From Pseudolactococcus plantarum (GTDB taxonomy: Bacteria; Bacillota; Bacilli; Lactobacillales; Streptococcaceae), in the NCBI GenBank assembly GCA_030454995.1, contig JAKDQI010000002.1:1-41028 (forward strand): 41,028 bases of DNA. Reading direction: 5' to 3'. The translations under genes and the position numbers were made by a program. How positions within the stretch are numbered: the stretch's first letter is position 1; every line of letters begins with the position of its first letter. A model generated the notes under the pieces. The model had not been told where the DNA came from and made no database searches. It saw nothing but the letters and a program-made list of their open reading frames with translations. Below, one piece after another: positions 11,642-29,850 of this stretch.

Positions 11642-11741
11642 ATTTTCTTCTTTCTAAGTTGTCATTTACTACATATATTAAGCAATATTAGGTAAAACAT
11701 TAGTTTATATATACTTCTAGTTTACACACAAAAAATAAAAA

Positions 11742-11827
11742 AGTATACGCCAAAGCATTTTATTTTTTCAAAAAAAGCAGTATACTAAAATGACCATAAT
11801 TTATGATTGACTGATGTCAAAGCATAA
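11742..11827. promoter_or_regulatory. Divergent control region with AGTATAC repeats and a dyad
   Basis: Between the reductase and LytTR genes, AGTATACG (11742-11749) and the palindrome AGTATACT (11779-11786) lie 37 bp apart. A second AGTATACT occurs at 12364-12371 after the LytTR gene. A 27-bp dyad with arms TTATG/CATAA and TTGAC/GTCAA spans 11801-11827. These may be operators; some TATACT copies could equally be -10 boxes. Confidence 0.3.
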
Positions 11828-11881
11828 TTTAAATACGACTAGATATAAAATAGAGAAATTATAATGGAAATGGCGGAGTAA

Positions 11882-12346
11882 ATGGCAAACAAGAATCTTA
11901 AAATTATCATGAATCAGTTAAAGGATATAACCGCGCAAGAATCTGTCATATTTAATTTATTTCGTACAAATAGTACAATCAATAAAGTCATTGATATGTT
12001 ACGTCAATCTAGCTCAACTATTCTAGCAACTGAGCTGCAAACAGCTGTACAGTACAAAGTCAAATTCGCAGATATTTTATATCTTGATTACGTTGACAGA
12101 AATGTGTGTTTGTACACTAAAGATGCGAGTTATTGGGTTAAAATTTCTTTTATCAAAATTTTAACCCAACTGCCAAGTCACTTCGTTCAGATTTCTAAAA
12201 ACAACGCTGTCAACATCTATGAGGTTCAATCTGTAGAAACTAATATCGGTGGCAATTTAATCATCAAACTCTCTACTGATGAAAAACTGGTCGTTAGCCG
12301 TCGCTATATCAAGAATTTTAAATTATGTTTGATTGAACAAACATAA
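11882..12346 (+). CDS. LytTR-type DNA-binding regulator
   Basis: The 154-residue protein has an N-terminal region of about 55 residues without a receiver domain, then a LytTR DNA-binding domain (from VKFADILYLDYVDRNVCLYT to VVSRRYIKNFKLCL, with the typical FVQISKNNAVNI strand). LytTR proteins of this size commonly pair with a DUF3021 membrane protein that restrains them; such a gene follows here with one gene in between. The ATG has GCGGAG upstream, and a five-codon frame (MEMAE) ends directly against it. Target genes are unknown; autoregulation is typical of the class. Confidence 0.85.
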   Translation: MANKNLKIIMNQLKDITAQESVIFNLFRTNSTINKVIDMLRQSSSTILATELQTAVQYKVKFADILYLDYVDRNVCLYTKDASYWVKISFIKILTQLPSHFVQISKNNAVNIYEVQSVETNIGGNLIIKLSTDEKLVVSRRYIKNFKLCLIEQT

Positions 12347-12453
12347 TTTAGCCGAATGTGTTCAGTATACTGCCACATGTGTCAACTGCTATTTCTTTTT
12401 ATGTCTGACATACCTATAATAAAAATATAGAAAGAAAAGAGGTTATACATCAC

Positions 12454-12963
12454 ATGACAGCATTATTAACTATCATCGTTCAAATCCTATCACACACACC
12501 GGTCTGGGTATGGATTATTCTCCTAATTTTGATAAAAAGAGGGATAAGTTTACAGACAGATTCCCCTGTGTCCCTCGCCAAATCCTTTATCATGCCAATT
12601 ATCTTTATACTGTGGGGACTAGATACAATTGCCACCAAATTCCACTTTCCGCTTTATCTTCTAACGACATACCTGCTATGTTTAGTTTTGGGCGCTTGTG
12701 CTAGTCTTTATCTCTATCGCAACAAAAGATTTTATGTCCAAAACACTGTTTTGATGCAAACCGGTAGCAAGATTCCCTTATGCATCATGATGAGTAATTT
12801 TTCTATTAAATATTGTTTAAATGTACTATTATCTACTCATTCTTCACTCTATAGTGTATTAAGTTTCAATATCACCTATGGTATCATCTCTGGATTTACA
12901 GTTGGGCTATTTTGGGGTGGCATTATTAAATCATCCCAAGCCAAAGCACGCCTAAGCGCTTAA
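12454..12963 (+). CDS. Small integral membrane protein, DUF6622-like
   Basis: The 169-residue protein is mostly hydrophobic with about four or five membrane segments. Its N-terminus (ILSHTPVWVWIILLILIKRG) matches my recollection of the DUF6622 family, whose members often start with a 'HTPxWVW' segment; that assignment is tentative. It lies between the LytTR regulator and the DUF3021 protein on the same strand, with 107 and 34 bases on either side, so it is probably part of their operon. The ATG follows AGAGG at a spacing of about eleven bases. No catalytic motif is visible. Confidence 0.6.
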   Translation: MTALLTIIVQILSHTPVWVWIILLILIKRGISLQTDSPVSLAKSFIMPIIFILWGLDTIATKFHFPLYLLTTYLLCLVLGACASLYLYRNKRFYVQNTVLMQTGSKIPLCIMMSNFSIKYCLNVLLSTHSSLYSVLSFNITYGIISGFTVGLFWGGIIKSSQAKARLSA

Positions 12964-12997
12964 ACTTAACTCACAATTCATAGCAAGGAAAATTAAG

Positions 12998-13381
12998 ATG
13001 TCTATTTTACAACGCTGTTTCAAAGCTTTAGGGATTGGTTCTTTTATCTACTTATTAATCCTGTTCATCAATAACGGTATAGTCGTCTACACGTCAGGAG
13101 TTATCTATGTCTTTGCAATCTCTATCTTTATTGCATTGACAAGTTATATTTTTAATATAGATGCCCTAAATTTTATCACTTGTTTAGTTATCCATTATAT
13201 ATTGGTTAATATATTTGTGATTGTTGGCAATTATGCCATGCACTTCACAGGTAACTACACCAACTTGTTTTTTTCCATTTTTATCATCTATGTAGTCTCT
13301 TTTATCGTGACAACAATTCAGACAAGACTGACCGTTAAACAGCTCAACTACTTAATTGATCAAGTTCATCACAAACACTAG
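12998..13381 (+). CDS. DUF3021-family membrane protein, LytTR partner
   Basis: The 127-residue protein has four predicted membrane segments and the ending typical of DUF3021 proteins (about ten residues after the last segment). Families of this kind sit beside LytTR regulators and are thought to sequester or modulate them at the membrane. The ATG has AAGGAAAA upstream. It is the last gene of the plus-strand trio, followed by a two-way terminator. Confidence 0.7.
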   Translation: MSILQRCFKALGIGSFIYLLILFINNGIVVYTSGVIYVFAISIFIALTSYIFNIDALNFITCLVIHYILVNIFVIVGNYAMHFTGNYTNLFFSIFIIYVVSFIVTTIQTRLTVKQLNYLIDQVHHKH

Positions 13382-13478: not shown

Positions 13479-15161
13479 TTATTCAACTGAGAATAAATAA
13501 GGATAAACAGGTTGTCCACCATCAAATATCTCGATTTCAACATCAGGGTACGTCTCTGATAATTCATCTGATAACCTATCAGCTAATTTACGTGAGCCAT
13601 CAGCACCGATATAGAGACTAATAATTTCAGCATCTTCGTTATCAGCGAGCATCTTCGCAAACGTTTGTGTCAAGACATCGTGTATGTCTTTTTCTGAGAC
13701 CACAATCTTATTATCGATCATACCAAGCCAGTCATTTTCATGGATGGCAAGTCCATCGATAGAAGTATCTCTGACAGCATTTGTCACTTGACCACTCATC
13801 ACTTCTGAAAGATTTTCAGTCATATCTGATACATTTTCATCTAATGTTTTACTTGCTTCAAAAGCTAATAAAGCCGTTAGACCTTGTGAAACTGTTTTAG
13901 ATTCAACTACCTTAGCAGGCACATCGACAACATCAGCTGCTGATTGGGCTGCCATAAAGATATTTTTATTATTTGGTAGAATAATCACATTTCTAGCATT
14001 CACAAGATCAATCGCTTTAACGATATCCTCCGTAGAAGGATTCATCGTTTGACCACCAGAAATAACGTAATCAACGCCCATATCTTTGAAGATTTTAGCT
14101 AAACCATCTCCTGCTGCGATTGCGATAATACCAAATTCTTTAGGCTCAGCCGCTTTTACAGGTGCTACTTGCTTTTCTTCTTTGATAATTTGTGCATCGT
14201 GTTGCTCACGCATATTATCAACTTTGACTTTAACTAAAGCACCGTATTTGAGTCCTTCTTGCATAACAAGACCTGGATCTTCAGTATGCACATGGACTTT
14301 AACGATTTCATCATCATTAACGACTAATAAAGAATCACCGATTTCATTCAAGTAATTTCTAAACGTCTCATAGTCAAAAGATTTACTCGCTGTAGGCCCT
14401 TGACCTAATCCAACCATGATCTCTGTACAATAGCCAAATTTGATATCTTCGGTTGCAATGTGACCTGCGACTGATTTATGATGTTCAGCATTAACCATCT
14501 CATCCATAACAGCAGGTGTTGCTTCAAATTCTGCTGAATCTAAATATTCACCAGTTGCTGCAGCAACAAAACCCTCTAAGATATAGACAAGACCTTGACC
14601 ACCAGAGTCAACGACACCGACTTCTTTTAAGACAGGCAACATATCAGGTGTTTTAGCAAGTGCTACTTTAGCCCCTTCAAGAGCTGCTTTCAAGACAACT
14701 ATCGCATCATCAGACTCATTTGCTGCTTTACCTGCAAAAGCTGATGCCCCACGAGAAACTGTTAAAATTGTTCCTTCTACTGGTTTCATAACCGCTTTAT
14801 AAGCGACTTCTACACCATTTTGGAAAGCTTTTGCTAAATTTTCTCCAGTAAATACTGTTTCTTCTTTGATAGCTTGACCAAATCCACGGAAAATTTGCGA
14901 CAAGATAACACCTGAGTTACCTCGCGCACCCATCAAAAGTCCTTTAGCAAGAATAGCCGCAACTTCACCTACTGTAGTCGCTTGTTTATCAGAAACGGCT
15001 TTTGCACCATTTGTGATCGTCATCCCCATATTAGTACCTGTATCGCCATCTGGAACAGGAAAAACATTAAGTGAGTTAACATACTCAGCTTGGCTATTTA
15101 ATCTGGTACTAGCAGCCTGAATCATTTCCTGAAATTGGCTTGCATTAATTGTATTAGTCAT
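13479..15161 (-). CDS. fakA: Fatty acid kinase, ATP-binding subunit FakA (DAK/DegV-associated)
   Basis: FakA phosphorylates fatty acids presented by a FakB (DegV-type) protein, so that exogenous fatty acids can enter phospholipid synthesis. The 560-residue protein has the N-terminal DhaL kinase domain (NSLNVFPVPDGDTGTNM near 29-45, GARGNSGVILSQIFRG near 98-113), a middle domain, and the C-terminal EDD-like region (GQPVYPYLFSVE at the end). Length is normal. It starts one base after the Asp23-like gene, the standard order in Firmicutes (yloU-yloV). No FakB gene is in the window. Confidence 0.92.
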   Translation of the reverse strand: MTNTINASQFQEMIQAASTRLNSQAEYVNSLNVFPVPDGDTGTNMGMTITNGAKAVSDKQATTVGEVAAILAKGLLMGARGNSGVILSQIFRGFGQAIKEETVFTGENLAKAFQNGVEVAYKAVMKPVEGTILTVSRGASAFAGKAANESDDAIVVLKAALEGAKVALAKTPDMLPVLKEVGVVDSGGQGLVYILEGFVAAATGEYLDSAEFEATPAVMDEMVNAEHHKSVAGHIATEDIKFGYCTEIMVGLGQGPTASKSFDYETFRNYLNEIGDSLLVVNDDEIVKVHVHTEDPGLVMQEGLKYGALVKVKVDNMREQHDAQIIKEEKQVAPVKAAEPKEFGIIAIAAGDGLAKIFKDMGVDYVISGGQTMNPSTEDIVKAIDLVNARNVIILPNNKNIFMAAQSAADVVDVPAKVVESKTVSQGLTALLAFEASKTLDENVSDMTENLSEVMSGQVTNAVRDTSIDGLAIHENDWLGMIDNKIVVSEKDIHDVLTQTFAKMLADNEDAEIISLYIGADGSRKLADRLSDELSETYPDVEIEIFDGGQPVYPYLFSVE

Positions 15162-15162
15162 G

Positions 15163-15525
15163 TTAGTCAGCCACCACTTTCACATTCTGTACGAAAACAT
15201 TGACTGAATTTGCTGTTACACCCAGTTGGTTTTCTAGATTAAACTTGACACGCTCTTGTACATTTTTAGCAACTTCAGAAATCTTGACACCAAAAGATAC
15301 AATCACATAAATATCAACATCAACACCATTATTTGTCGCTGAAATCACAACACCTTTAGCATAGTTTTCTTGACGTAGTAGTGTTTTGAAATTATCTTTA
15401 ACAGCATTTTTACTAGTCATACCGACTACACCGAAAATTTCAGTCGTTGATGCACCAACTATGGTAGAAATTACATCATTTTCAATGTCAACTGTTCCAT
15501 TTTTTGTATTAATTGTCACAGACAT
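15163..15525 (-). CDS. Asp23/Gls24-family protein (YloU-like)
   Basis: The 120-residue protein matches the Asp23/Gls24 family: it starts with a short strand-rich segment (IENDVISTIVGASTTEIFGVVGM), has the conserved GVVISATNNGVDVDIYVIVSFGVKI core, and ends with the VNVFVQNVKV strand. Relatives are envelope-stress or fakA-adjacent proteins of unsettled function. The ATG follows GCGAGG. Its upstream region holds a hairpin in the untranslated leader. It is co-transcribed with fakA. Confidence 0.88.
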   Translation of the reverse strand: MSVTINTKNGTVDIENDVISTIVGASTTEIFGVVGMTSKNAVKDNFKTLLRQENYAKGVVISATNNGVDVDIYVIVSFGVKISEVAKNVQERVKFNLENQLGVTANSVNVFVQNVKVVAD

Positions 15526-15545
15526 ATTTTATCCTCGCTTATGAT

Positions 15546-15578
15546 GAGTTTTGTGAAGCTTACTTAAAAGCAAAACTC
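15546..15578 (-). other. Hairpin in the 5' leader of the asp23-fakA transcript
   Basis: Perfect eight-base arms GAGTTTTG and CAAAACTC surround a 17-base interior that contains a smaller CTT/AAG pairing. It lies about 20 bases before the asp23-like start and has no T run, so it is not a terminator. Its role is unknown. Confidence 0.4.
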
Positions 15579-15670
15579 CTGTGTTTAAAAGCCTAACAAC
15601 CATCTATAACCTACTCATGGTCACAAATATCAAAGGCCCTTTCACTTATTTTAACATAATCTAATCAATT

Positions 15671-15696
15671 AAAAAACCGTGAAGTCTTTTCACGGT
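15671..15696 (-). terminator. Terminator after rpmB
   Basis: Minus-strand ACCGTGAA and TTCACGGT form a tight hairpin followed by six T. Confidence 0.9.
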
Positions 15697-15709
15697 AAAT
15701 TTATAACAA

Positions 15710-15898
15710 TTAAACGCGTTCCACTGAAAGGTTTTTAAGTGCACGAGCTGATGCCCATACTGATTTCACTTTACCATTTTCAACGATTTTAATTTTTTGT
15801 AAGTTTGGTTTAACTTGTTTTTTCGTTTTGTTCATCGCATGCGAACGGTTGTTAGCAGATGAAGTCTTACGACCTGTAAAGTAACATACTTTAGCCAT
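15710..15898 (-). CDS. rpmB: 50S ribosomal protein L28
   Basis: The 62-residue basic protein begins [20 protein letters not shown] and has the L28 core [20 protein letters not shown] and ending [13 protein letters not shown]. The correct start is the ATG at 15898, which has AGGAG upstream; an upstream in-frame start would add 12 residues without a ribosome binding site. It has its own promoter and terminator and lies opposite in direction of synthesis to nothing nearby, being between the gal operon and the asp23-fakA unit on the same strand. Confidence 0.95.
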
Positions 15899-15952
15899 GA
15901 TATATTTCTCCTGTAGTATTTTTTTGTTAGTCATTTCATAACATACTAGAAC

Positions 15953-15980
15953 ATTATATCATATCTCACTTTAAAATCAA
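15953..15980 (-). promoter_or_regulatory. Promoter of rpmB
   Basis: Minus strand -35 TTGATT (15975-15980), 16-bp spacer, -10 TATAAT (15953-15958) preceded by TGA. Confidence 0.75.
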
Positions 15981-16049
15981 GCCATTTTAATGATTTTTTT
16001 CAGGTATTACCCACAACGTTAAACACACATCTATCAATACAATACTCTA

Positions 16050-17033
16050 TTAATATCCTGTCGGATGATTTTTATGCCATTGCCAAGCATTCGTGATAAT
16101 GTGTTCAATATCATGTTTAGCCGACCAGCCTAAGACTTTTCCTGCTTTACTTGCATCTGCAACCAAAGCATCTGGATCACCTGCACGACGTTCTCCTATT
16201 TGACTAGGAATGGCGCATCCTGTAACTTTTCGTGCAGTTTCAAGCACTTCTAAATTGGAGTATCCTTTACTTGAGCCTAGGTTAAATGCATCCGATTGAC
16301 CACCTGCTTTAAGATATTCCAACGCCTTGATATGCGCATCTATCAGATCTTCCATATCGATATAATCTCGGATACAAGTCCCATCAGCTGTCTGATAATC
16401 ATCACCATATATAGTAATCACGTCACGTTGTCCTAATGCAGTTTGCAAGATAATCGGAATCAGATGTGTTTCATTTTTATGGGCTTCTCCAATAGACCCA
16501 TCGCCCTTAGCACCAGCTACATTAAAATAGCGAAGTGCTACATAAGTCATATCAGTTGCTTCAGATTGCCACTTCATCATTTTTTCCATAAGAAGCTTGC
16601 TCTCACCGTAAGGATTAATCGGATTTTGAGGCGTTAGTTCAGAGATTGGTGACTTTTCTGGTATACCAAATGTAGCAGCTGTAGAAGAAAATACAATATG
16701 TTTTACATCAAATGCTTGCATGGTCTCCAAAATAGAGATACATCCGCCTACATTATTATCAAAATACATCATTGGGTTCACCATAGATTCCCCAACTAAA
16801 GAATACGCACAAAAATGCATAATCCCTTCAATAGTGTTTTCTGAGTTAAAGACGTGTGCTAAAAATTCACGATCTAAAACATCCCCTTCATACAAACGAA
16901 CGTTCTCTGGTATAGCTTGTCGATGACCTGTAACGAAGTTATCTACCACTGCTACATCATACCCTTTTTCCATCAACATGGATACAGCGTGACTACCAAC
17001 ATATCCTGCGCCACCAAGTACTAAAACCGTCAT
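16050..17033 (-). CDS. galE: UDP-glucose 4-epimerase
   Basis: GalE interconverts UDP-galactose and UDP-glucose with bound NAD, closing the Leloir pathway and supplying UDP-galactose for envelope sugars. The 327-residue short-chain dehydrogenase has the N-terminal NAD motif VLGGAGYVGSHAV, the catalytic Ser/Thr (FSSTAAT) and the YxxxK pair (PYGESKLLMEK), and the DYIDMEDLIDAH segment. The ATG has AAGGAGG upstream. It is last in galP-galM-galK-galT-galE, but a 173-bp gap holds extra -10 boxes, so it can probably be expressed apart from galactose induction. No clear terminator follows. Confidence 0.95.
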   Translation of the reverse strand: MTVLVLGGAGYVGSHAVSMLMEKGYDVAVVDNFVTGHRQAIPENVRLYEGDVLDREFLAHVFNSENTIEGIMHFCAYSLVGESMVNPMMYFDNNVGGCISILETMQAFDVKHIVFSSTAATFGIPEKSPISELTPQNPINPYGESKLLMEKMMKWQSEATDMTYVALRYFNVAGAKGDGSIGEAHKNETHLIPIILQTALGQRDVITIYGDDYQTADGTCIRDYIDMEDLIDAHIKALEYLKAGGQSDAFNLGSSKGYSNLEVLETARKVTGCAIPSQIGERRAGDPDALVADASKAGKVLGWSAKHDIEHIITNAWQWHKNHPTGY

Positions 17034-17113
17034 ACTTTTCCTCCTTAAACTTTCGCAACTGATAGTTATTCATGATATTTGTCATCTAACTCTCATTTTT
17101 TAACAATACTTTA

Positions 17114-17122
17114 ATTATACAA
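17114..17122 (-). promoter_or_regulatory. Candidate extended -10 box for galE
   Basis: TTGTATAAT lies about 80 bases upstream of the galE ATG on the minus strand. A second box, TGATATAAT (17158-17166), lies further up. No strong -35 was found for either. Confidence 0.45.
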
Positions 17123-17206
17123 TTTTACTTGTTTAAAATCTATCACATTTTAAGTTAATTATATCAGAACACTCATTAAATCATAGCAAGCAATCAATAG
17201 TACATC

Positions 17207-18691
17207 TTATCTATCATTAACAGCCGCTATGAATCTGTCAAATCCTATTTGTCCATTATGATTATCTTTAAAAACACCCGCATCTTGTAAAACTTGCTCA
17301 AATACTGCACCAACTGCTTGTTGAACTTTTTCATGTACGTCTTGGGGAGTAACAGCTAGTGTATTTTTCAAATGATTTGCCCAACTAAGATGACTATCAG
17401 CAATCTCATTTGATTGATTCAGCAAGTACTTTTCAACTTCGTTAAGTTCATCTTTTAAACGCGGTGGTAAAATGGCAAGTCCCATCACTTCAATTAAACC
17501 AATATTTTCTTTTTTGATGTGATGTAGCGTCTCATGTGGATGAAAGATACCATCTGGAAATGCTTCACTTGTATTATTATCTCTAAATACTAAATCAAGC
17601 ACATAATCAGTACCTATTTTTCTAGCAATTGGGGTAATCGTATGATGCAATACATTATCCTCAGTTTTCGAGACAATCTGTAGCGATTTGTCATCATATT
17701 GTCTCCACTTTTCTAATATTTCGCTACTCGCAGCCAACAGAACATCCCTTTTCGTACTTCTTAATCGCAAAACCGACATCGGCCAATTCACAATCCCTGC
17801 TTGAATATCTGGATAGTTTTGTAATTGAACAGTTTTTCGGATATGTGCTTTCATCATCGGAAAGTCATAGCACCCTGCTTGATAATGGTCATGTGTTAAA
17901 ATAGAGCCTCCAACAATCGGTAAATCAGCATTTGAGCCTATCATATAATGCGGGAACACATCCAAAAAACTGAGTAAATTATCAAATGTTTGCTCATTAA
18001 TGACCATCGGCTGATGTGTTTCATTAAACACAATAGCATGTTCTTGATAATAAGCATATGGCGAATATTGAAACCCCCATTTTTGATCACCCAGTCGCAT
18101 TCTAATGACACGATGATTACTTCTTGCTGGATGATTACCTCCACCATACAGACCTTCATTTTCAAGACACAAAGCACACTTAGGATAGCCTGACGATTGT
18201 TTCATTTTCTCCAAAGCGATCATTTTAGGATCTTTTTCTGGTTTGGAAAGATTAATAGTAATCTCTAACTCACCGTATTTTGTTTGATGTATGAAGCCAA
18301 TATTTTTAGCAATATCTCTTGTTTTGACTTGGTCAACTTGACGTGCCAATTGATAAAAATAACTGGTTGCAAGTTCAGGTTGTTCATCATATTTTTCCCA
18401 AAATTCCTGGTTAATTTGACTTGGTTTTGGTGTGATGAAATTCATCAATGCAGCCTCATAAAAAGACGCATCTTCCTCAGTAAATTGCTTATTTATTTTT
18501 GCAATCTCCAGTAAATCGTCCATCAAGATAAGTGCACTATGTTTTTCACCACCAACTTTTGGTTCTTGCCAATCATCAACACCTAAAAAATGAAGCAACT
18601 GATTCCGCAAGTAGACTTTATCTATTGCATTAATCGTCCCATTTTCTTCTGCTATATCTATAAAATTTTGAATGGTTTGATACTTTGACAT
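17207..18691 (-). CDS. galT: Galactose-1-phosphate uridylyltransferase (Firmicutes type)
   Basis: GalT exchanges UMP between UDP-glucose and galactose-1-phosphate. The protein belongs to the long Firmicutes GalT class (about 490 residues), with the conserved CALCLENEGLYGG and the later PIVGGSILTHDHYQAG and FHPHETLHHIKKENIG stretches. I chose the ATG at 18691 because MSKYQTIQNFIDIAEENG aligns with family N-termini and gives 494 residues. An in-frame TTG at 18763, with AAGGTG seven bases before it, would add 24 residues and is an alternative; an ATG at 18748 has no ribosome binding site. Third cistron of the gal operon proper, 88 bases after galK. Confidence 0.92.
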   Translation of the reverse strand: MSKYQTIQNFIDIAEENGTINAIDKVYLRNQLLHFLGVDDWQEPKVGGEKHSALILMDDLLEIAKINKQFTEEDASFYEAALMNFITPKPSQINQEFWEKYDEQPELATSYFYQLARQVDQVKTRDIAKNIGFIHQTKYGELEITINLSKPEKDPKMIALEKMKQSSGYPKCALCLENEGLYGGGNHPARSNHRVIRMRLGDQKWGFQYSPYAYYQEHAIVFNETHQPMVINEQTFDNLLSFLDVFPHYMIGSNADLPIVGGSILTHDHYQAGCYDFPMMKAHIRKTVQLQNYPDIQAGIVNWPMSVLRLRSTKRDVLLAASSEILEKWRQYDDKSLQIVSKTEDNVLHHTITPIARKIGTDYVLDLVFRDNNTSEAFPDGIFHPHETLHHIKKENIGLIEVMGLAILPPRLKDELNEVEKYLLNQSNEIADSHLSWANHLKNTLAVTPQDVHEKVQQAVGAVFEQVLQDAGVFKDNHNGQIGFDRFIAAVNDR

Positions 18692-18779
18692 GTCTAATTC
18701 CAATCTAGATTTATTTTCATTACCTTTATCATTTACTTCAATTGACATGTATCTGTTTGTCAAATTTCAACACCTTACT

Positions 18780-19979
18780 TTAGTTTACATCTAATTTTGT
18801 TGCACCAGAACCAATCTGAGCAACATAGAAACTTGCAGGATAACCGATTGTCTTTTCATAAATGTCACCGACTGTCTTTTCAAAAGCAGCAACTCTATCA
18901 TGCGCAACAAGCGCGATAGCACACCCACCAAAACCTGCGCCTGTCATACGAGCGCCTAACGTACCTGGTTGTTTTTGAGCCGATTCTGCTAAGGTATCCA
19001 ACTCAATTCCTGTCACTTCATAATCATCTTTTAGCGATGCATGAGAAGCGTTTAAAAGGTCTCCAAATTTCGTTAAATCACCAGAAACAAAAGCTTTTTG
19101 GGCGATTTTAGTCCGATTATTTTCATAAACTGCATGGCGCGCACGCTTAATTAGCGTTGGATCATTAATTAAGTCTACATTTGCATCAAATTCCTCGTTA
19201 GAAAGCTCTGCAAGTGCAGTAATCGGCATTTTAGTTTGTAGACGTTTAAGTGCTTCTCTTGTTTCTGAAAATCGCTCATTATATTTAGATTCGGCTAAAG
19301 CACGTGGTTTGTTTGTATTCATGATCACGATATCGTAATCACGTAATTCTACAGGCACCATTTCATATTTTAATGTATTGCAGTCAAGTAAGATAGCTTT
19401 TTTAACTTCACCAAACCCAATTGCAAACTGATCTAGAATACCTGAGTTGACACCAATAAACTCATTTTCTGTTTTTTGTCCTAGTTGCACAAGTTCCAGA
19501 CGTGGGACATTTAACTTAAATAAGTCATCTAGTGTTACACCGACTAAAAGTTCAAGAGAGGCTGAAGATGATAGCCCTGATGCTGTAGGTATCTCCCCTT
19601 GTATTAAAAATTCAAATCCCCTATCAATTTTATACCCTGCCTCTTTTAATACCGTTATCATGCCTTTGACATAATTTGACCAACTATTGCCATCTTGTAC
19701 ACCACTGTCTGCTAAATCAAATTCAATGATGCCTATTTCTGGAAAATTTTCTGAATAAAGCCTAACTTTATGATCATCTCTTAGTCGTGCTATAGCTGTT
19801 GTACCAATGGTAATTGATGCTGGAAAAACATAGCCTCCATTATAATCTGTGTGTTCTCCAATTAAGTTAATCCGCCCAGGAGAGAAAAAGTATGAAACTC
19901 CTCGTTTATCTCCAAATACGGATACAAATTTGTCTGTTAAACCTGACAAAACTTGACTATTATCTACAACTGTTGACAT
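18780..19979 (-). CDS. galK: Galactokinase
   Basis: GalK phosphorylates alpha-D-galactose with ATP. The 399-residue GHMP kinase shows the galactokinase signature GRINLIGEHTDYNGGYVFP, the ATP-binding PTASGLSSSASLELLVG, and the late GARMTGAGFGGCAIALV. The ATG at 19979 follows AGAGGAG and yields the standard lactococcal N-terminus (MSTVVDNSQVLSGL); an in-frame start 12 codons earlier lacks such a site. It lies just after the interrupted galM. All key motifs are intact, so galactose phosphorylation should be functional. Confidence 0.96.
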   Translation of the reverse strand: MSTVVDNSQVLSGLTDKFVSVFGDKRGVSYFFSPGRINLIGEHTDYNGGYVFPASITIGTTAIARLRDDHKVRLYSENFPEIGIIEFDLADSGVQDGNSWSNYVKGMITVLKEAGYKIDRGFEFLIQGEIPTASGLSSSASLELLVGVTLDDLFKLNVPRLELVQLGQKTENEFIGVNSGILDQFAIGFGEVKKAILLDCNTLKYEMVPVELRDYDIVIMNTNKPRALAESKYNERFSETREALKRLQTKMPITALAELSNEEFDANVDLINDPTLIKRARHAVYENNRTKIAQKAFVSGDLTKFGDLLNASHASLKDDYEVTGIELDTLAESAQKQPGTLGARMTGAGFGGCAIALVAHDRVAAFEKTVGDIYEKTIGYPASFYVAQIGSGATKLDVN

Positions 19980-20032
19980 TTTATTCTCCTCTAACTGTTT
20001 ATCATTATACGACACTTAATACTTACGACAAG

Positions 20033-21052
20033 CTAATTTACCTGTAATTGGTAAACTGTTTTCGCGTGATAAGTATCTCCAGCAACTAATGTAATATCTC
20101 CAAGTTCTGGAATTTGCTGTGAACCTGGTGATACTTGACATTCAAACGTTATCCCACCATGGTTTACTTGTTGCCTACCATGATAGACAGTCCCTAATTC
20201 TCCAAAATTGGCTGTAAAAATGACAATACTCGGACGATCTGTGTGAACTTAAATACTTAACTCTCCCAAACTCAGTCGTGCTTGTTCTTTTTCAAGTGTC
20301 ACCTCATCTAATAAGAAAGGATGATCGATACCACCAACAAGCTGCACTTGTGCCATAGCAGAATTTAATGCCTGACTCAGTAATTTAGGCTGATGAAAAT
20401 CTAAATCAGTCCCTTCTAGATCAACAATATCTCCTCGTACAATCTCTGTTTTATCTTTTAATGTGACAAATCGTGATGCTGACATTTCAAGCATATGCTG
20501 ATCAATTGTTTGGCTAGCATCGCCAGTCAAATTAAAATAGACATGCCCAGTCGGATTAAAAACAGTATCTTTGGTTGTTGTTGCCTGATAATCAATTGTC
20601 CAATTATTGTCTTCGTCATAGGAATGGGTCACAGTCATACTAAGTTGACCTGGGTAACCATTCTCTCCATCATTAGAGATGTAACTAAACTTAACTTGGG
20701 CTTTACTTTCCGTTTCAGAAATATCATACTGCCAAAGTTTTGTATGTATACTTGAGTCTCCACCATGTAGTGTTTGTGGACCTTCATTTTGATTCAGTTG
20801 TACTTTCTCTCCAGAAATCTCAACCACTCCATCTTTAATTCTCCCGGCTGTTCGGCCAATAGTTGCACCAGGATAGGCATCTTTTTCAAGATATTCTTGT
20901 GCAGAATCGAATCCTAAAACTAAGCTTTTACCATCTTTTTGCCAATCCACAATACGCGCGCCAAAGTTAGTAAAACTAATACTCACACCCTGTTGATTGG
21001 TCAGAGTAATCAGGTTACTGCCCAATCCAAAATCCCTTATCTTAATATCCAT
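20033..21052 (-). pseudogene. galM: Aldose 1-epimerase (galactose mutarotase) interrupted by an in-frame stop
   Basis: GalM equilibrates beta- and alpha-galactose for galactokinase. From the ATG at 21052 (AGGAGG upstream; an earlier start adds an unrelated 26-residue tail) the frame reads MDIKIRDFG and contains the mutarotase core NQNEGPQTLHGG and NPTGHVYFNLTG. It stops at a TAA (20249-20251) after 267 residues. The same frame then continues for 71 codons with clear mutarotase sequence (VHTDRPSIVIFTANFGEL, then NHGGITFECQ) to a TAG at 20033-20035. Without the TAA the protein would be 339 residues, the family's usual size. It is a nonsense mutation or a base-call error, not a frameshift. The truncated product lacks the last beta strands. 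Confidence 0.88.
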
Positions 21053-21139
21053 ACTGTTCCTCCTAAAACAGATGCTACTACTCAAAACAACTAAGCAGTA
21101 GCATCTGTTTAACAACACCTTGATAAGCAAGGCGTTTAA

Positions 21140-22528
21140 CTATTTAAAACGTTCTTCAAGTTCCTTGACAATTTCTTCATGTCGTTTTTCAGTTAGTTTC
21201 ACTATGAATAAGTAAATCGTTAGTGAGATGATCATCAAAACTGCTGGGACAATAAAGGCATATAATTTAAAAGTTGCAACACCATAAGTATGCCCACTAA
21301 TATATTTTGAACCTGTCATGCCTGCTGCGATGGCAACAAATCCATAAATCCCATTTGAAAATGCACCAGCAATTTTATCAAGTAATGGTCGCATGGCAAG
21401 TGTTACTGCCTCATTACGCACACCATTTTTCCATTGCCCATATTCAACAGAGTCAGTAATCGTCATTAAAACAGATAAGAAAACTAATTGATAAGGTGTT
21501 GTTAAGAAAATTAACCCAGCTACCGTCATAGGCACAGATGTACCTACAGTAAAAATGACGTATCCAACAAGCATTGAGATGATGGCACCTGTCAAAACTT
21601 TACGACGACCGAACTTCTTAGCTAAGATTGGAAATAGTGGTACTAAAATAATCGAACCGATAAAGCCAACAATACCAGTGATTGAATACAAGCTGACATT
21701 ACCAATGACAAAGGTAAAGTTTAAAATCAGTGTTGCTGTTGTTGCCACATAAGCAATTGCAAATAAAATGTATGAGAGCGACAACCACATCAATTGATCA
21801 TTTTTTACTAACGCTTTAAATACATCTAATGTATTTGTTTTTGTCCCTTGTTGTCTAATTGTTGATTCTCGTTCTTTGGTTCCCCAAGCTGCTACTAAAG
21901 CTGATATGCCTTGAACTAGTGCTGCAATGACACCAAAAGCAAAGAAACCACGTGCTCCTTGTGTATGACCACCTTTTGTAAAAAATAGTGTGATTGGGAT
22001 TGCAAGAATCGTCGCACCTTGTGCACCAATAGCTGATCCAAAACGCGCAAATGTGCCTAAAGTTTCGCGTTCTGAGTTTTTTTCTGATAGCGCTGGAATC
22101 ATTGACCAAAATGCAATATCCTTAAATGAATAAAAAGCATCTAAGATGATAAATGAAATAATAAAGACGATCGTAAATAACGTCCGATTGCCACTTTTTG
22201 CTAACCCAAAAAAGTCAGAGAACATTAGCATAATCATTAACGAAGACATAAGCCCGCCAACAACTAACCAAGGTTTAAATTTTCCCCATCGTGTTTGTGT
22301 ATTATCAATGATTGACCCAATAATTGGATCAAAAATAATTTCTACGAGACGTATAATCACAACTAAACTTGTCACAAGTGCAATCATTGCATCTTCATGA
22401 GGTGTCCCAGCAAACATCTGTGCTGTGACAAAGGCAATAAAGAATGTACTAATTGAGTAATAATAGACATCGTGCCCGAGTGCACCGAATCCATACGATA
22501 AAAGTTGCTTCATTTTTCCACTGTTCAT
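21140..22528 (-). CDS. galP: Galactose permease, GPH (MelB-like) family
   Basis: This 462-residue protein has about twelve membrane segments and the glycoside-pentoside-hexuronide symporter signature: N-terminal KQLLSYGFGALGHDVYYYS, then FDPIIGSIIDNTQTRWGKFKPW with the conserved Asp and RxGxxxP-like loop. It should import galactose with a cation. Unlike LacS it has no C-terminal IIA domain. The ATG follows GGGAGG. It is the first gene of the gal operon, behind a promoter region with a cre site and a repeated operator, and downstream of an RpiR-type regulator gene. Confidence 0.9.
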   Translation of the reverse strand: MNSGKMKQLLSYGFGALGHDVYYYSISTFFIAFVTAQMFAGTPHEDAMIALVTSLVVIIRLVEIIFDPIIGSIIDNTQTRWGKFKPWLVVGGLMSSLMIMLMFSDFFGLAKSGNRTLFTIVFIISFIILDAFYSFKDIAFWSMIPALSEKNSERETLGTFARFGSAIGAQGATILAIPITLFFTKGGHTQGARGFFAFGVIAALVQGISALVAAWGTKERESTIRQQGTKTNTLDVFKALVKNDQLMWLSLSYILFAIAYVATTATLILNFTFVIGNVSLYSITGIVGFIGSIILVPLFPILAKKFGRRKVLTGAIISMLVGYVIFTVGTSVPMTVAGLIFLTTPYQLVFLSVLMTITDSVEYGQWKNGVRNEAVTLAMRPLLDKIAGAFSNGIYGFVAIAAGMTGSKYISGHTYGVATFKLYAFIVPAVLMIISLTIYLFIVKLTEKRHEEIVKELEERFK

Positions 22529-22553
22529 GGTAATCCTCCCAGTAATTACGATT

Positions 22554-22567
22554 TGAAATCGCTTACA
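22554..22567. promoter_or_regulatory. CcpA catabolite-response element (cre) of the gal operon
   Basis: The minus strand reads TGTAAGCGATTTCA, a full match to the consensus TGWAANCGNTNWCA. It lies about 26 bases before the galP ATG and just downstream of the likely -10 box, a position suited to catabolite repression. Confidence 0.88.
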
Positions 22568-22572
22568 TAATT

Positions 22573-22581
22573 AGTTTAACA
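22573..22581 (-). promoter_or_regulatory. Likely extended -10 of the gal operon
   Basis: Minus strand TGTTAAACT lies between the operator repeats and the cre site. The -35 region is poor, consistent with a regulated or activated promoter. The same nine bases occur as the extended -10 of the HTH-aminotransferase gene. Confidence 0.45.
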
Positions 22582-22588
22582 TGTACTC

Positions 22589-22638
22589 TTAGGAAAATAT
22601 TTCCAAGTTATAGATATTACTTAGGAAATGCTTTCAAT
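22589..22638. promoter_or_regulatory. Two tandem operator-like dyads upstream of galP
   Basis: TTAGGAAAATATTTCCAA (from 22589) and TTAGGAAATGCTTTCAAT (from 22621) share the plan TTAGGAAA-N3-TTTC. Their centres are 32 bp apart, about three helical turns. They lie upstream of the gal promoter and next to the RpiR-type gene, which is the obvious candidate to bind them. Confidence 0.6.
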
Positions 22639-22639
22639 A

Positions 22640-22668
22640 TTAAAAAGATACTAAAAGTATCTTTTTAA
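22640..22668. terminator. Terminator between the RpiR-type gene and galP
   Basis: Perfect 12-base arms (TTAAAAAGATAC and GTATCTTTTTAA) around five bases, with T-rich tails, isolate the regulator from the gal operon. Confidence 0.88.
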
Positions 22669-22693
22669 TCAAGTAACCTTTGTCTATGATCAA

Positions 22694-23431
22694 TTAATCC
22701 TTATTTTTTTGATAAATCGAATAGCCATCTATCAAAACCCGCCCCAAAATAAAAAGCGGTAATCTGCTATGCACGTCTAAATCAAAATGATTAATCTCTA
22801 ATCGACTTTTATATCCTATCAGACAAACATCAGATAAACACACAAGTTCGCTATCTTGGTTAGTCGTTAATGCTAAAATATTACCTGATTGTCGATTCAC
22901 TTGTTTTAATGGTATATTGATTTCAGCATTTTCGCCAGATAATGAAAGTGCAATGACAAGCTGATGTTCTTTAACAAAACGTGTATAATAAAGCATTTGT
23001 TGTGGATCATCATAAAGACTCACACTTTTATGAAACAGCTGTAGTTTTCTTAATAACTCATTTGCAACATTTATCGTCAGGCCCCGGGCAAAAAGTAAAA
23101 TTTCCTCAGCCTCATCTATTAATTTTACTGCTGCCTCTACGTCGGTAGCAGATATACTATAAATCGTCTGTAATAATTCTTCCTCATTTTTAGCAATAGC
23201 CTCTAAAAATTCTCTAGAAAAACCGGTCCTATCAGGTAACTTTTTCTCACGAATTGAATATCTAAATTCACCATATCCTGAAAATCCTTTTTTTCGTACT
23301 GTACGATTGACTGTAGAAATAGATACGTGAGCCAAATTTGACAAATCTGAAATTGATAACTTTGGAATATTGTCATAATTTTCTTGGATGATTTCCCAAG
23401 TACAGCGTTCTGCGTTTGTAAGATTTGACAT
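22694..23431 (-). CDS. RpiR-family regulator, probable galactose operon regulator
   Basis: The protein has an N-terminal RpiR helix-turn-helix (LSISDLSNLAHVSISTVNRT followed by VRKKGFSGYGEFRYSI) and a C-terminal SIS sugar-phosphate isomerase-like domain (AEEILLFARGLTINVANELL, LVIALSLSGENAEI). RpiR regulators sense phosphosugars. I prefer the ATG at 23431 (245 residues), because GGAG precedes it while the ATG at 23449 has none. Placed directly before galP and separated by a terminator, it is the natural candidate to sense a Leloir intermediate and act at the tandem dyads; that is inference. Confidence 0.88.
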   Translation of the reverse strand: MSNLTNAERCTWEIIQENYDNIPKLSISDLSNLAHVSISTVNRTVRKKGFSGYGEFRYSIREKKLPDRTGFSREFLEAIAKNEEELLQTIYSISATDVEAAVKLIDEAEEILLFARGLTINVANELLRKLQLFHKSVSLYDDPQQMLYYTRFVKEHQLVIALSLSGENAEINIPLKQVNRQSGNILALTTNQDSELVCLSDVCLIGYKSRLEINHFDLDVHSRLPLFILGRVLIDGYSIYQKNKD

Positions 23432-23475
23432 ATGATTAATCAACTCCATTAAATTTTATGTTTCTATTTAACTAA

Positions 23476-23497
23476 AGTATATCATGAAGCGCTTACA
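23476..23497 (-). promoter_or_regulatory. Promoter of the RpiR-type gene with a degenerate cre
   Basis: An extended -10 TGATATACT (23476-23484) is preceded by TGTAAGCGCTTCAT (23484-23497), which matches the first ten positions of a cre and then diverges. CcpA could touch this promoter, but the match is partial. Confidence 0.4.
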
Positions 23498-23614
23498 ATT
23501 GATATAAGCAAACTAGAGACTCTCTCTAAACCTGTTCGTTTGTCATAAGCAAGCTATTTAAAAATGAAACCAGTCTCATTTATTCGAAATACTAATGAAA
23601 AGTTCAACTTTTTC

Positions 23615-23623
23615 TGTTAAAAT
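23615..23623 (+). promoter_or_regulatory. Extended -10 promoter of the DUF1129 gene, placed for a leaderless transcript
   Basis: TGTTAAAAT ends six bases before the ATG at 23630, and no Shine-Dalgarno lies between. The arrangement is the same as at mutL, argR and polA. Confidence 0.5.
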
Positions 23624-23629
23624 AAGATT

Positions 23630-24301
23630 ATGGAAAATTATATTGATCAATTAACAGGAAAAAATAGCGAATACGTACATATCATCACGCGTGAACTTGT
23701 CAAAATAGGTAAGACAGATGAAGAAATAAAAGCTATTTTATCAGAAATATTGCCACAAATTGTAGCCGCACAGGAGCAACGTGTGCTCGCTAAAGATCTG
23801 CTTGGTACGCCTTCAGAATTCACAGCTAAATACACACCACAAACTCAAGTCAGCAAAAATACAAAAGCTGACCAATACGATAACGAAACACCTGTATTAA
23901 TGTGGCTAGATAGTGCTCTCTTAATGTTAGGGTTCATCACTATCTTAAACGCTATTATGGCTACCTTTAATAAAGGTGCTCGCGCATATGGGATCGTTAC
24001 ACTCGTTACGATGAGCTTTGCTGCTGGTTTTGTCATTTATCTCATGTACCGACTTGTATATAAACCACAAAACGAAGGTAAAAAAAGACCCGGATTCAAA
24101 TCTTATGCAATCCTCACGCTAGCATTTCTGGCTTGGATTGTTTTGTATAGCTTGTCTGCCTTATTACCAGCTAGTCTTAATCCTTCACCAAATAGCTATG
24201 TTGTCGGTGTGATTGGTCTTATCGCTTTAGGGATTCGTTACCTCCTCAAACGTAAATATCATATCAGATCTGCTATGGCTACATCACCAAAGAGAAACTA
24301 A
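23630..24301 (+). CDS. DUF1129-family membrane protein
   Basis: The 223-residue protein has a cytoplasmic N-terminal helical region of about 85 residues (LTGKNSEYVHIITRELVKIG, a HAAS/DUF1129-type start, then ILPQIVAAQEQ and LLGTPSEF), followed by four membrane segments arranged in two pairs and a basic tail. The DUF1129 family is common in lactic acid bacteria and has no known function. It is a single gene with its own promoter, lacks a Shine-Dalgarno, and ends at its own terminator. Confidence 0.72.
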   Translation: MENYIDQLTGKNSEYVHIITRELVKIGKTDEEIKAILSEILPQIVAAQEQRVLAKDLLGTPSEFTAKYTPQTQVSKNTKADQYDNETPVLMWLDSALLMLGFITILNAIMATFNKGARAYGIVTLVTMSFAAGFVIYLMYRLVYKPQNEGKKRPGFKSYAILTLAFLAWIVLYSLSALLPASLNPSPNSYVVGVIGLIALGIRYLLKRKYHIRSAMATSPKRN

Positions 24302-24536: not shown

Positions 24537-25877
24537 CTAATTGGAAAGTGGCGTTTGTCTGACTTTCAAAACACCGTCAGCTTCGATCAAGGCCACACCA
24601 TCAACTTGACTGATCTGTGACACTCTCTCTTGAATCGCTGTTACTGTCTCTGGATCAGCTAATTTTGGTCGACCACGCTTGCTGGGGCGGTCATGCGTCA
24701 ACTGCAAATCAATCGGAATCAAGTGATAATCGAATGTCTCTTGGTCTGCATTTAAGTCAAAACTAATCAAAACGCTTTGACTAAACCTATCTTCAGCATT
24801 AAAGCCTTGCCAGTTACCAGCTTTGTCTTTAGCCCGATTAGCATGTAATGTTGAAGGTTTTGAGTTTGCTGGATAGCCATATGCTTCATACATTTCTGGT
24901 GGGATAATTGATTCTCCCGACTCAAATTCCATCACCAGACTATGAATATTATAGAAAATAGGTTTGCCTTGATGCAGCGCTATACCTTTTAGAAAATGCG
25001 CACCATGTCCGATAACTGCATCTGCGCCATAATCAATAGCTGATTTAGCAAACTTTTCGATAAACGCTGCAGGCTCATCAGCATACCAATCTTCATTTAA
25101 TCCTTCATGAGCATGGAAATTTACAAAAACATAATCAGCACGATTTTTAGCATCGGCGATATCAGCTAATATGTCAGCTTGGTCCTGCTCATTCGCTTTG
25201 GTGCGAACAGCATAATCGTCACCCAACTCGATTGATACATGTTCTTGCCAGAGAGAGCCAAATTTAAAAGCGCTATCATCTGGTCCTGACCAAGTTTCTA
25301 CACGACTACCCTGCTCTGTACTAGCTCGTGTTCCAAGTTTATGATCTATCTCAGCTAAGGCATCAAATGCAGACTTAGGTAATACATAGCTGCGGTCCCA
25401 ACGCAAGGGATTAACACCGGGTCGAGCTGGCACACCATTACCAGCATCACTTGCAGCAAATACCTCACTTCGTGTGACAGCTACAGTGATAATGGCAATT
25501 CGACCATCTCGTGTATCTATAAACTGTGGTTTTCTAGCATCAAATAAACTTTCGCCTAGACCCAAAGGATGTAACCCTCGACTTCTAGCTGCTGCCAAAG
25601 TATCTAACATCCCTGTGATACCAAAATCACCCGTATGATTATTGGCAAAAGAGAGATATTTCATATTTAGATCCGTAAATTCGTCAAGCGTTTCAGCTCG
25701 AACTGCGGTTACATATCCTCTTCCAGCAGCAGGTGGGGTATCTTTTTTAGGGGTTACAAATTCTGCGTTGGCCACAACTGCGTCTGCTGACTGTAACAAC
25801 TCAACAAGTTTAGGATCTATCGTCTCTTTCAAATTACGACTTGAAAAGAGCAAATCCCCTGCAACGATTAACTGCAT
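24537..25877 (-). CDS. CapA-family (poly-gamma-glutamate synthesis-like) metallophosphatase-type protein
   Basis: The 446-residue protein has the CapA fold: an N-terminal AGDLLFSS strand, VVANAEF, LSFANNHTGDFG (metal-binding Asn-His type) near 95, and later VFVNFHAHEGLNE and DAVIGHGAHFLKGI. CapA homologues can participate in polyglutamate export or act as phosphatase-like enzymes. There is no signal peptide or membrane anchor, so a cytoplasmic role is likely here. The C-terminus has a basic KRGRPKL stretch resembling an AT-hook core. The gene looks more GC-rich than its neighbours, a hint of transfer. SD GGAAGG precedes the ATG. It starts 17 bases after the lipoprotein gene and is probably co-transcribed. 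Confidence 0.78.
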   Translation of the reverse strand: MQLIVAGDLLFSSRNLKETIDPKLVELLQSADAVVANAEFVTPKKDTPPAAGRGYVTAVRAETLDEFTDLNMKYLSFANNHTGDFGITGMLDTLAAARSRGLHPLGLGESLFDARKPQFIDTRDGRIAIITVAVTRSEVFAASDAGNGVPARPGVNPLRWDRSYVLPKSAFDALAEIDHKLGTRASTEQGSRVETWSGPDDSAFKFGSLWQEHVSIELGDDYAVRTKANEQDQADILADIADAKNRADYVFVNFHAHEGLNEDWYADEPAAFIEKFAKSAIDYGADAVIGHGAHFLKGIALHQGKPIFYNIHSLVMEFESGESIIPPEMYEAYGYPANSKPSTLHANRAKDKAGNWQGFNAEDRFSQSVLISFDLNADQETFDYHLIPIDLQLTHDRPSKRGRPKLADPETVTAIQERVSQISQVDGVALIEADGVLKVRQTPLSN

Positions 25878-25894
25878 CGCTTGGTCCTTCCTTA

Positions 25895-26749
25895 TTATTG
25901 ATTAATTTCTTTTTCATCAGGTAGATAGCTAGCGCCCAACTGTTCTTGACTAATTTTTTCGAGCGTACCATCTTTGTATATTTTTTTAATTTGCTGATTG
26001 ACTACTTTTAAGAGCTTGTCGCCGTCTTTAGTTTTAGGTAAAAGCAGGTAGGCATCAGGATAGATACTTGGATCTGAGAACGGAACAATTTTCAGTTTAA
26101 ACCCATGCTCTTTAATCGCTTGTTTTGCTGAAATAGTACTGATAATCCGTACATCATATTTCCCCTCTTCAATATTCTGAAATTGTTTGATAAAATCTTG
26201 ATCTGTGTATTGAATATCAATTTTACCACTATGATTTTTATTATAATTTTCTAGTAAAGTCGCACCACTATTGCCGACCTCTGTCACTGCTTTTTTGCCT
26301 GTCAAATCATCTAAAGATTTGATTTGGTTGTCATTTTCTCGGACTACTAAAACATAAGGATTTTTAGTAATTGGCAATGAGAAGTTATACTTTTTAGCAC
26401 GTTCTGCGTTATACGAAAAGTTATTTGCACCTAGTTGATAACGATCGGTATCCAAACCAGCCAAAATTGATTCGAATTCCGTCGTTTCAAGATCGACCTT
26501 ATACTCCTGCTTCAATCCAGAAAATAAAGCCTTAACCACCTCAACATCATAGCCTGTCAGCTTTCCGTTTTCTCTATAGCTAAAGGGCTTGCTGACCCCA
26601 GACGTACCAATATGGAGGACTTGAGGGGCAGATGCCGGCTGACCTGATGATTTCGTTTCTTTTTTTTGCTGACCACAAGCGACCAAACTACCACCAATGA
26701 CAGCAAGCGCTAACCCACTCACGATTAAACGTTTCACTTTTGACTTCAT
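25895..26749 (-). CDS. Amino acid ABC transporter substrate-binding lipoprotein
   Basis: The 284-residue protein starts at the ATG at 26749 (GGAAGA upstream). An in-frame ATG-less extension of 21 residues has no ribosome binding site and would spoil the signal peptide. A lipoprotein signal peptide ends in the lipobox LVAC, followed by a Lys/Ser-rich spacer. The mature part has the SBP_bac_3 fold for polar amino acids (GKLTGYDVEVVKALFSGL, TTEFESILAGLDTDRYQLGANNFS, KAVTEVGNSGATLLENYN). No permease or ATPase gene lies beside it, so it must pair with a distant transporter. It is upstream of the CapA-like gene in the same transcript. Confidence 0.88.
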   Translation of the reverse strand: MKSKVKRLIVSGLALAVIGGSLVACGQQKKETKSSGQPASAPQVLHIGTSGVSKPFSYRENGKLTGYDVEVVKALFSGLKQEYKVDLETTEFESILAGLDTDRYQLGANNFSYNAERAKKYNFSLPITKNPYVLVVRENDNQIKSLDDLTGKKAVTEVGNSGATLLENYNKNHSGKIDIQYTDQDFIKQFQNIEEGKYDVRIISTISAKQAIKEHGFKLKIVPFSDPSIYPDAYLLLPKTKDGDKLLKVVNQQIKKIYKDGTLEKISQEQLGASYLPDEKEINQ

Positions 26750-27055
26750 TTTATTATCTTCCAATCTAAATATTTTTTCTATACACCTAATCATACTATG
26801 TTTAGGTGACACTAGCGTTTGCGTTTATTTATAACCGTTATTCATTTTTTATAACAAGTCGTCAAATGATTGAATTATTAGCATATGGCACTAAAACAAT
26901 TGTAATAACTGACAAATTAACTGAAATTCATCTAATAAGATCAAGATATAAATAACATGTTTCTGATAAGATTACTTGCTGATGAGTCGACACGGTTTTC
27001 TATATAATTGACTAGTTTTATCAGTTTCCTTGGCATTCCCTGTTATCATACCCAC

Positions 27056-27088
27056 ACAAAAACCCTAGCGATAGTTACGCTAGGGTTT
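27056..27088 (-). terminator. Terminator of polA
   Basis: Perfect 11-base arms AAACCCTAGCG and CGCTAGGGTTT around a seven-base loop, followed on the minus strand by a short T-rich tail. Confidence 0.88.
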
Positions 27089-27098
27089 ATTCAGCCTG

Positions 27099-27120
27099 AC
27101 ACAAACCAATTGGTCTGTGT
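27099..27120. repeat. 22-bp palindrome just after the polA stop
   Basis: ACACAAACCAATTGGTCTGTGT is self-complementary except for one pair. It stands between the polA stop and the main terminator and would form a second hairpin in the polA 3' untranslated region. Confidence 0.55.
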
Positions 27121-27127
27121 TTTAGAA

Positions 27128-29743
27128 CTACTTGGCATCGTACCAAGTTTTACCATTATTTTCGTCTACTAATAAAGGAACCGAGAGAGAAATTGCTTCT
27201 TCCATCGTCTTTTTAACTAATGTTTGCATCACTGCTAACTCTTCATTTGGTACATCTAAAACGATCTCATCATGTACCTGAAGTAACATTTTACTTTTAT
27301 ACTTACCTGCTGTCAAAGTATGATCTAGATTAATCATGGCAACTTTAAGAATATCAGCTGCTGAACCCTGAATTGGGCTATTAATAGCTGTGCGTTCTGC
27401 AAATGATCGAACGGAAAAATTTCTAGCATTAATATCTGGTAAATTTCGACGTCTGTGGTAAAGCGTTTCGACAAATCCTGTATCCTTAGCACTTCGCACG
27501 ATATCTTCCATATACTTTTTAATATCTGGATAGCGTTCAAAGTAAGTATCGATATATGTCTTTGCTGCTTTTCTTGAAATACCTAGATTATTTGATAACC
27601 CAAAGTCTGATATCCCATAGACAACACCAAAGTTTACTGCTTTAGCATTTCTACGATCATTTGCTGTCACATCTTCTGGCTTATCAATACCAAATACGCG
27701 CATCGCTGTCGATGTATGGATATCTGCGCCATCATTAAACGCTGAAATCAAGTGTTCATCTCCGGATATATGTGCTAATACACGTAATTCAATCTGAGAA
27801 TAGTCACTTGATAATAGAACTGAATCTTCATTTTCAGGCAAAAAGGCCTTACGAATCTTACGTCCTTCAGGCAACCGAACCGGGATATTTTGTAAGTTAG
27901 GTTGTACACTAGACAAACGGCCTGTCTGTGTTAAATCTTGGACATAACGTGTATGGATCTTACCATCAGGCATGATTTCTCCAAGTAAGCCTGTAACATA
28001 GGTAGACTGAATCTTTGAAATCTGGCGATACTTCAAAATCTTATCAACAATCGGTGCTTGTGGGGCAAGTTGCTCTAGTACATCAACTGCTGTAGAATAA
28101 CCCGTTTTCGTTTTCTTAATAACAGGTAATCCCATTTTTTCAAATAAAATCACCCCTAGCTGTTTAGGAGAGTTGATATTAAAGCTTTCTCCTGCAAGGT
28201 CGTAGATTTCTTCGGTCAATCCTTTAAGTACTTGCTCATTCTCAAGCCCAATTTCACTTAAAACACCACCTGAAACTTTTATCCCCGAAATTTCCATCTT
28301 AGCCAATACATCAGCTAAAGGAAGTTCAATCTGACCTAAGAGATCCACTTGATCATTTTCTACCAACTTTTCAAGTAACGGTGCTTGCGTTTTCACTAAG
28401 ACATCTAGTTTTCTAGCAAGATGGTCAAATAAAATAGCATCTTCAGGTACTGCACGTTTAGCTCCCTTGCCATAGACTAACTCATCATCTGGCAACTCAA
28501 AACCAAATAACTCAGCAATGGTTGAAATTTTATTATTTTCTATCGTAGAATACAAGTACTTGGCAAGCATAGTGTCAAAGCTGACTACCGGGTAATTAAT
28601 ACCTTGACGTGCTAGTAAGACTTTATTCTTCTTAAAATCAAAGGTATTTTTGGGAAACCGTACATCACTAAGTAAGGCAACATTTTTTGACACATAAATC
28701 TGCTTCGCATCACCCCAAGTAAATCCGATGATCGTATCGCGATGATAATCTTCTCCTAGGATTTCAAGATAGAAAAACTGATCATCATGAAACATATCAT
28801 CACTAAGATGTTCTTCCACGATGTTAAACTCAATAGCTTCGACTACTTTCTCGGTAGCCCCTTCCAAGTTTTCTAGAAATTTATGGAAGCCCATCTCCTT
28901 ATAGAAAGCTTTTAATTTATCGTAGTCACTTCCCTCATATAGTGTGTCTGCTAAGCTGATTTCGATCGGTGAATCAAGATCGATCGTTGCAAGCTGTCTT
29001 GACAAAAACGCTTGTTCTCGGTCATTGATCAAGTTTTCTTTGAGCTTAGAGGTTTTCATCTCATCTATGTGATTGTAAATCCCATCTAACGACCCATGCT
29101 CAAGTAATAATTTGATACCTGTTTTTTCACCTACCTTAGTCACACCAGGAATGTTATCAGATTTATCCCCCATGAGTGCTTTTAAATCGATGAATTGCTC
29201 AGTTGTTAATCCTAATTTCTCATATAAATAGGTCGGCGTATAAGTTTCAAGCTCTGCAACACCTTTAATTGTAATCTCAACTGTTGTTTTTTCAGTTGTC
29301 AGTTGTGTTAAGTCACGATCTCCGGATACCACTGTGATTTTATCAAACCCAGATTTTTCTGCCTGACTGGCTAAGGTACCAATAATATCATCTGCTTCAT
29401 AGTTCACAAGTTCATAATGCCTAATCCCTTGTGCTTCAAGCATCTCTTTAATAAAAGGCATCTGCTCACGAAACTCATCTGGTGTTTTGGCACGGCCGCC
29501 TTTATACTCCGCATACATGTCAGTTCTAAACGTTGTTTTACCTGCATCAAAAGCAACCAAAACGTGTGTAGGTTGTACAGCTTCTAAAACGTTCCCTAAC
29601 ATCGTATGAAAAGCAAAAATCGCATTTGTATGAAGTCCTGATGGTGCAACAAATCGATCAATCTGTGTATAAAGTGCAAAAAAAGCACGAAAAGCGATGG
29701 AAGACCCATCTATCAAAAGTAGTTTTTTCTCTGTAGTTGTCAT
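27128..29743 (-). CDS. polA: DNA polymerase I
   Basis: Pol I fills gaps in repair and removes RNA primers. The 871-residue protein has the N-terminal 5'-3' exonuclease (LLLIDGSSIAFRAFFALY, ALMGDKSDNIPGV near 190), a middle region in which the 3'-5' exonuclease catalytic acids are not evident, and the polymerase domain with motif A (SSDYSQIELRVLAHISGD), motif B (RRNAKAVNFGVVYGISDFG) and motif C (LLQVHDEIVLDVP). Lack of proofreading is usual in this group. The ATG at 29743 has no Shine-Dalgarno; an extended -10 TGTTAAAAT ends six bases before it, right after the preceding gene's terminator, so the mRNA looks leaderless. Confidence 0.96.
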   Translation of the reverse strand: MTTTEKKLLLIDGSSIAFRAFFALYTQIDRFVAPSGLHTNAIFAFHTMLGNVLEAVQPTHVLVAFDAGKTTFRTDMYAEYKGGRAKTPDEFREQMPFIKEMLEAQGIRHYELVNYEADDIIGTLASQAEKSGFDKITVVSGDRDLTQLTTEKTTVEITIKGVAELETYTPTYLYEKLGLTTEQFIDLKALMGDKSDNIPGVTKVGEKTGIKLLLEHGSLDGIYNHIDEMKTSKLKENLINDREQAFLSRQLATIDLDSPIEISLADTLYEGSDYDKLKAFYKEMGFHKFLENLEGATEKVVEAIEFNIVEEHLSDDMFHDDQFFYLEILGEDYHRDTIIGFTWGDAKQIYVSKNVALLSDVRFPKNTFDFKKNKVLLARQGINYPVVSFDTMLAKYLYSTIENNKISTIAELFGFELPDDELVYGKGAKRAVPEDAILFDHLARKLDVLVKTQAPLLEKLVENDQVDLLGQIELPLADVLAKMEISGIKVSGGVLSEIGLENEQVLKGLTEEIYDLAGESFNINSPKQLGVILFEKMGLPVIKKTKTGYSTAVDVLEQLAPQAPIVDKILKYRQISKIQSTYVTGLLGEIMPDGKIHTRYVQDLTQTGRLSSVQPNLQNIPVRLPEGRKIRKAFLPENEDSVLLSSDYSQIELRVLAHISGDEHLISAFNDGADIHTSTAMRVFGIDKPEDVTANDRRNAKAVNFGVVYGISDFGLSNNLGISRKAAKTYIDTYFERYPDIKKYMEDIVRSAKDTGFVETLYHRRRNLPDINARNFSVRSFAERTAINSPIQGSAADILKVAMINLDHTLTAGKYKSKMLLQVHDEIVLDVPNEELAVMQTLVKKTMEEAISLSVPLLVDENNGKTWYDAK

Positions 29744-29749
29744 ATTTCT

Positions 29750-29758
29750 ATTTTAACA
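29750..29758 (-). promoter_or_regulatory. Extended -10 promoter of polA, placed for a leaderless transcript
   Basis: Minus strand TGTTAAAAT ends six bases before the polA ATG, so the usual start site is the A of the ATG. It directly follows the T run of the upstream terminator. The -35 region falls in that terminator and is weak. Confidence 0.55.
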
Positions 29759-29762
29759 CAAA

Positions 29763-29790
29763 AATACCTGTCTCATCTATGACAGGTATT
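29763..29790 (-). terminator. Terminator after the DUF6440 gene
   Basis: Perfect ten-base arms AATACCTGTC and GACAGGTATT around eight bases, followed by T on the minus strand. It insulates polA. Confidence 0.88.
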
Positions 29791-29850
29791 CATCAATTTT
29801 GAACTTATGCTGTCAAAAACGCGATGATAAATATGCGTATCATATCGTGA

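Follow-up and report, generated by a model that had tools for sequence, protein, structure and literature searches.

A galM gene interrupted by a single in-frame stop codon within the galPMKTE operon of Pseudolactococcus plantarum

In this analysis of a 41,028-nucleotide stretch of Pseudolactococcus plantarum DNA (hereafter the window) we find a Lactococcus-like galPMKTE operon in which galM, the gene for galactose mutarotase, an accessory enzyme of galactose breakdown, carries an in-frame TAA. The gene is either an ordinary point-mutation pseudogene or the site of a base-call error, and it has probably been inactivated by one recent substitution that would have turned codon 268, a serine codon in relatives, into TAA. 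The features on which this reading rests are listed in Table 1.

Table 1. Features of the gal region, in window coordinates
Feature	Position	Strand	Basis
galM (galactose mutarotase / aldose 1-epimerase), disrupted	20033..21052	-	translation, homology
In-frame TAA, codon 268; Ser in sister G001 and most near relatives	20249..20251	-	translation, alignment
galM N-terminal part, translatable, 267 aa; His96, His170 and Asp243 present, Glu304 absent	20252..21052	-	alignment
galM 71-codon remnant, untranslated; Glu304 included; no further lesion	20036..20248	-	translation, alignment
galP, GPH-family sugar:cation symporter, 462 aa, intact	21140..22528	-	
galK, galactokinase, 399 aa from ATG, intact, own ribosome-binding site	18780..19979	-	
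galT, UDP-glucose--hexose-1-phosphate uridylyltransferase, intact	17207..18763	-	
galE, UDP-glucose 4-epimerase, intact	16050..17033	-	
RpiR-family regulator, directly upstream of galP	22694..23449	-	family and position; L. lactis comparison from PMC6528599

The galM frame comprises 340 codons, including the internal TAA and a terminal TAG. It begins with an ATG at 21052, 5' of which lies an AGGAGG-type ribosome-binding site, and runs for 267 sense codons before the TAA and 71 after it. The TAA, read from 20251 to 20249, is the only break in the frame, and there is no indel. The original prediction of a single in-frame nonsense substitution followed by 71 codons of mutarotase sequence agrees with the closest genome, the sister species G001, which has a sense codon at this position and an intact galM matched by the tail of the frame. 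The total of 339 residues given there includes the position of the TAA itself. The lysine or glutamine codon proposed as the ancestor of the TAA is not supported by the alignment, in which G001, G006, Lactococcus lactis and most other near relatives have serine at codon 268.

When read through the stop, the frame aligns without gaps to L. lactis galactose mutarotase (PDB 1L7J) over residues 1–337 (E 1.1e-166), which rules out a chance open frame. The copy studied here differs from the L. lactis protein in its TAA at codon 268 and in the absence of Glu304 from the translated part. His96, His170, Asp243 and Glu304, which PMC5622589 places in the active site of the L. lactis enzyme, are invariant in ten aligned GalM sequences; in this alignment the first three precede the TAA and Glu304 falls beyond it. 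The deposited L. lactis GalM variant 1ns0 has Gln aligned with Glu304, which would fit an earlier study of this glutamate for its role in the mechanism. Because an active-site residue and the end of the fold are missing, the 267-aa product should be inactive, as judged from the sequence. This product scores 294 bits, below the galM_Leloir cut-off of 397.65, a threshold that is not decisive for this lineage since the intact GalM of the sister species scores only 370.

In G001 the intact galM (L003) shares 95% protein identity with the interrupted gene and has the same neighbours in the same order, so that, as a pseudogene reading requires, an intact orthologue lies at the same place in a close relative. 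Among the GalM matches in 40 relatives' genomes searched, the comparison set containing one genome per species, no other has a stop codon. Absence of a close GalM is not rare within the genus, since only 8 of the 12 genomes of the genus set have a match at E <= 1e-60. For GalK, the closest named relative is Lactococcus fujiensis (80%). A literature search, judged by titles and abstracts, gave no published galM nonsense allele that we recognised in Lactococcus.

Codons on the two sides of the TAA are equally constrained in comparison with G001 (dN/dS 0.187 before, 0.186 after), in a pairwise measure made against an intact orthologue and therefore blind to relaxation of selection after the stop. 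This equality, together with the lack of any second lesion, suggests that the stop is either recent or a base-call error. An error of sequencing or assembly, with galM intact in the organism, has an appreciable if clearly minor probability: the difference is a single base in a 1.94-Mb draft assembly of 194 contigs, and the undamaged state of the rest of the gene, with the same constraint before and after the TAA, is what such an error would leave. Yet among the remaining genes of the window, all those alignable with the sister genome are uninterrupted, which argues that the sequence is not generally poor, and there are further differences from G001 close by, at codons 270 and 273, as fits ordinary divergence. 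The constraint on the 71 codons after the stop could also be taken to mean that the TAA is read through, or that the two parts of galM act as a split enzyme, so that some mutarotase is made. We regard this as highly improbable, because with an intact orthologue as reference the constraint is mostly older than the stop, and because the downstream part contains no in-frame ATG and the stop is absent from all relatives. A recent substitution remains the preferred reading.

The dN/dS of galM, 0.187, is the highest of the five operon genes, the others ranging from 0.059 to 0.126. Its excess is significant with respect to galE alone (p 0.012), but not with respect to galP, galK and galT together (Fisher p 0.26) or to all four genes pooled (p 0.13). 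Relaxed selection before the stop was accordingly not retained, as the excess over the pooled neighbours is not significant and most amino-acid differences cannot be assigned to a lineage. As a separate observation, dS with respect to G001 is low around the operon (window positions 13479-24301), at about 0.10–0.18 with galE as an exception at 0.31, and mostly higher in the flanks (4055-13381 and 24537-38266), at about 0.2–0.9; this pattern may stem from codon bias or from a gal region recently exchanged between the two species.

The genes are transcribed in the order RpiR-family regulator, GPH symporter gene galP, galM, galK, galT, galE, and the P-M-K-T-E arrangement matches that of L. lactis, as in the galPMKTE operon of strain MG1363 (PMC6085457). 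By position and family the regulator is the counterpart of GlaR (YugA), which in L. lactis IL1403 is an RpiR-family activator of the gal genes (PMC6528599). As originally stated, the remaining Leloir genes are intact, the frames of galP, galK, galT and galE all being open. Strong polarity of the galM stop on galKTE is not expected, because galK is preceded by a ribosome-binding site of its own and a search of the genome for Rho gave weak ATPase-like matches only, none above the cut-off, on which ground Rho-dependent polarity was set aside.

Loss of GalM would leave a pathway in which galactose enters via GalP and is then processed by GalK, GalT and GalE. The substrate of galactokinase is the alpha anomer (PMC6085457), and dependence on spontaneous mutarotation could make its supply limiting (PMC5902678). 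In the proposed scheme alpha-galactose would be resupplied by spontaneous mutarotation, possibly helped by an aldose-epimerase-family protein encoded on another contig (L116, 1387-2259). This intact protein of 290 aa is the only other PF01263 member found in the genome (108 bits, cut-off 27). It shares this family with galM, but a genome search with a Leloir GalM query does not pick it up and found no second GalM of the Leloir type; nor does any NCBIfam GalM model match it above cut-off. A second Leloir GalM was rejected on this ground, and the L116 protein is regarded as a distinct member of the family. A bypass through tagatose 6-phosphate was also rejected, as lacA gave matches below cut-off only, both here and in G001, with similar weak matches in control genomes. 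A mild galactose defect with dependence on spontaneous mutarotation is the best prediction, and a plausible one.

Several GH1 proteins are encoded in the genome, all below the lacG cut-off, and a search of the genome for galactosidases of families GH2, GH36 and GH42 found none. The contrast between growth on lactose and on galactose that had been suggested as a check may thus be inapplicable to this strain, given that no GH2 or GH42 beta-galactosidase was found. One could further propose that loss of GalM is tolerated or even favoured in this lineage, either because galactose reaches GalK without need of the enzyme, no GH2 or GH42 enzyme having been found, or because the L116 protein substitutes for it; we consider this doubtful. 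The finding means little beyond annotation, where galM is to be labelled a pseudogene. Provided that the stop is real, the strain is a natural galM mutant with a galPMKTE operon, and could show how much GalM weighs in a Lactococcus.

Two further observations were made elsewhere in the window. The block at 9379-13381, which encodes an ABC-2 type membrane protein and its neighbours, is clearly more divergent from G001 than the rest (78–92% protein identity, dS 0.5–0.9), and the counterpart of this block in G001 is flanked by extra sequence, about 1.6 kb on one side and 2.2 kb on the other. The GTG-start open reading frame at 25895-26812 has probably been called too long at its 5' end: the aligned upstream part in G001 has a stop just 5' of a shared internal ATG, which belongs to a lipoprotein-like solute-binding protein (SBP_bac_3).
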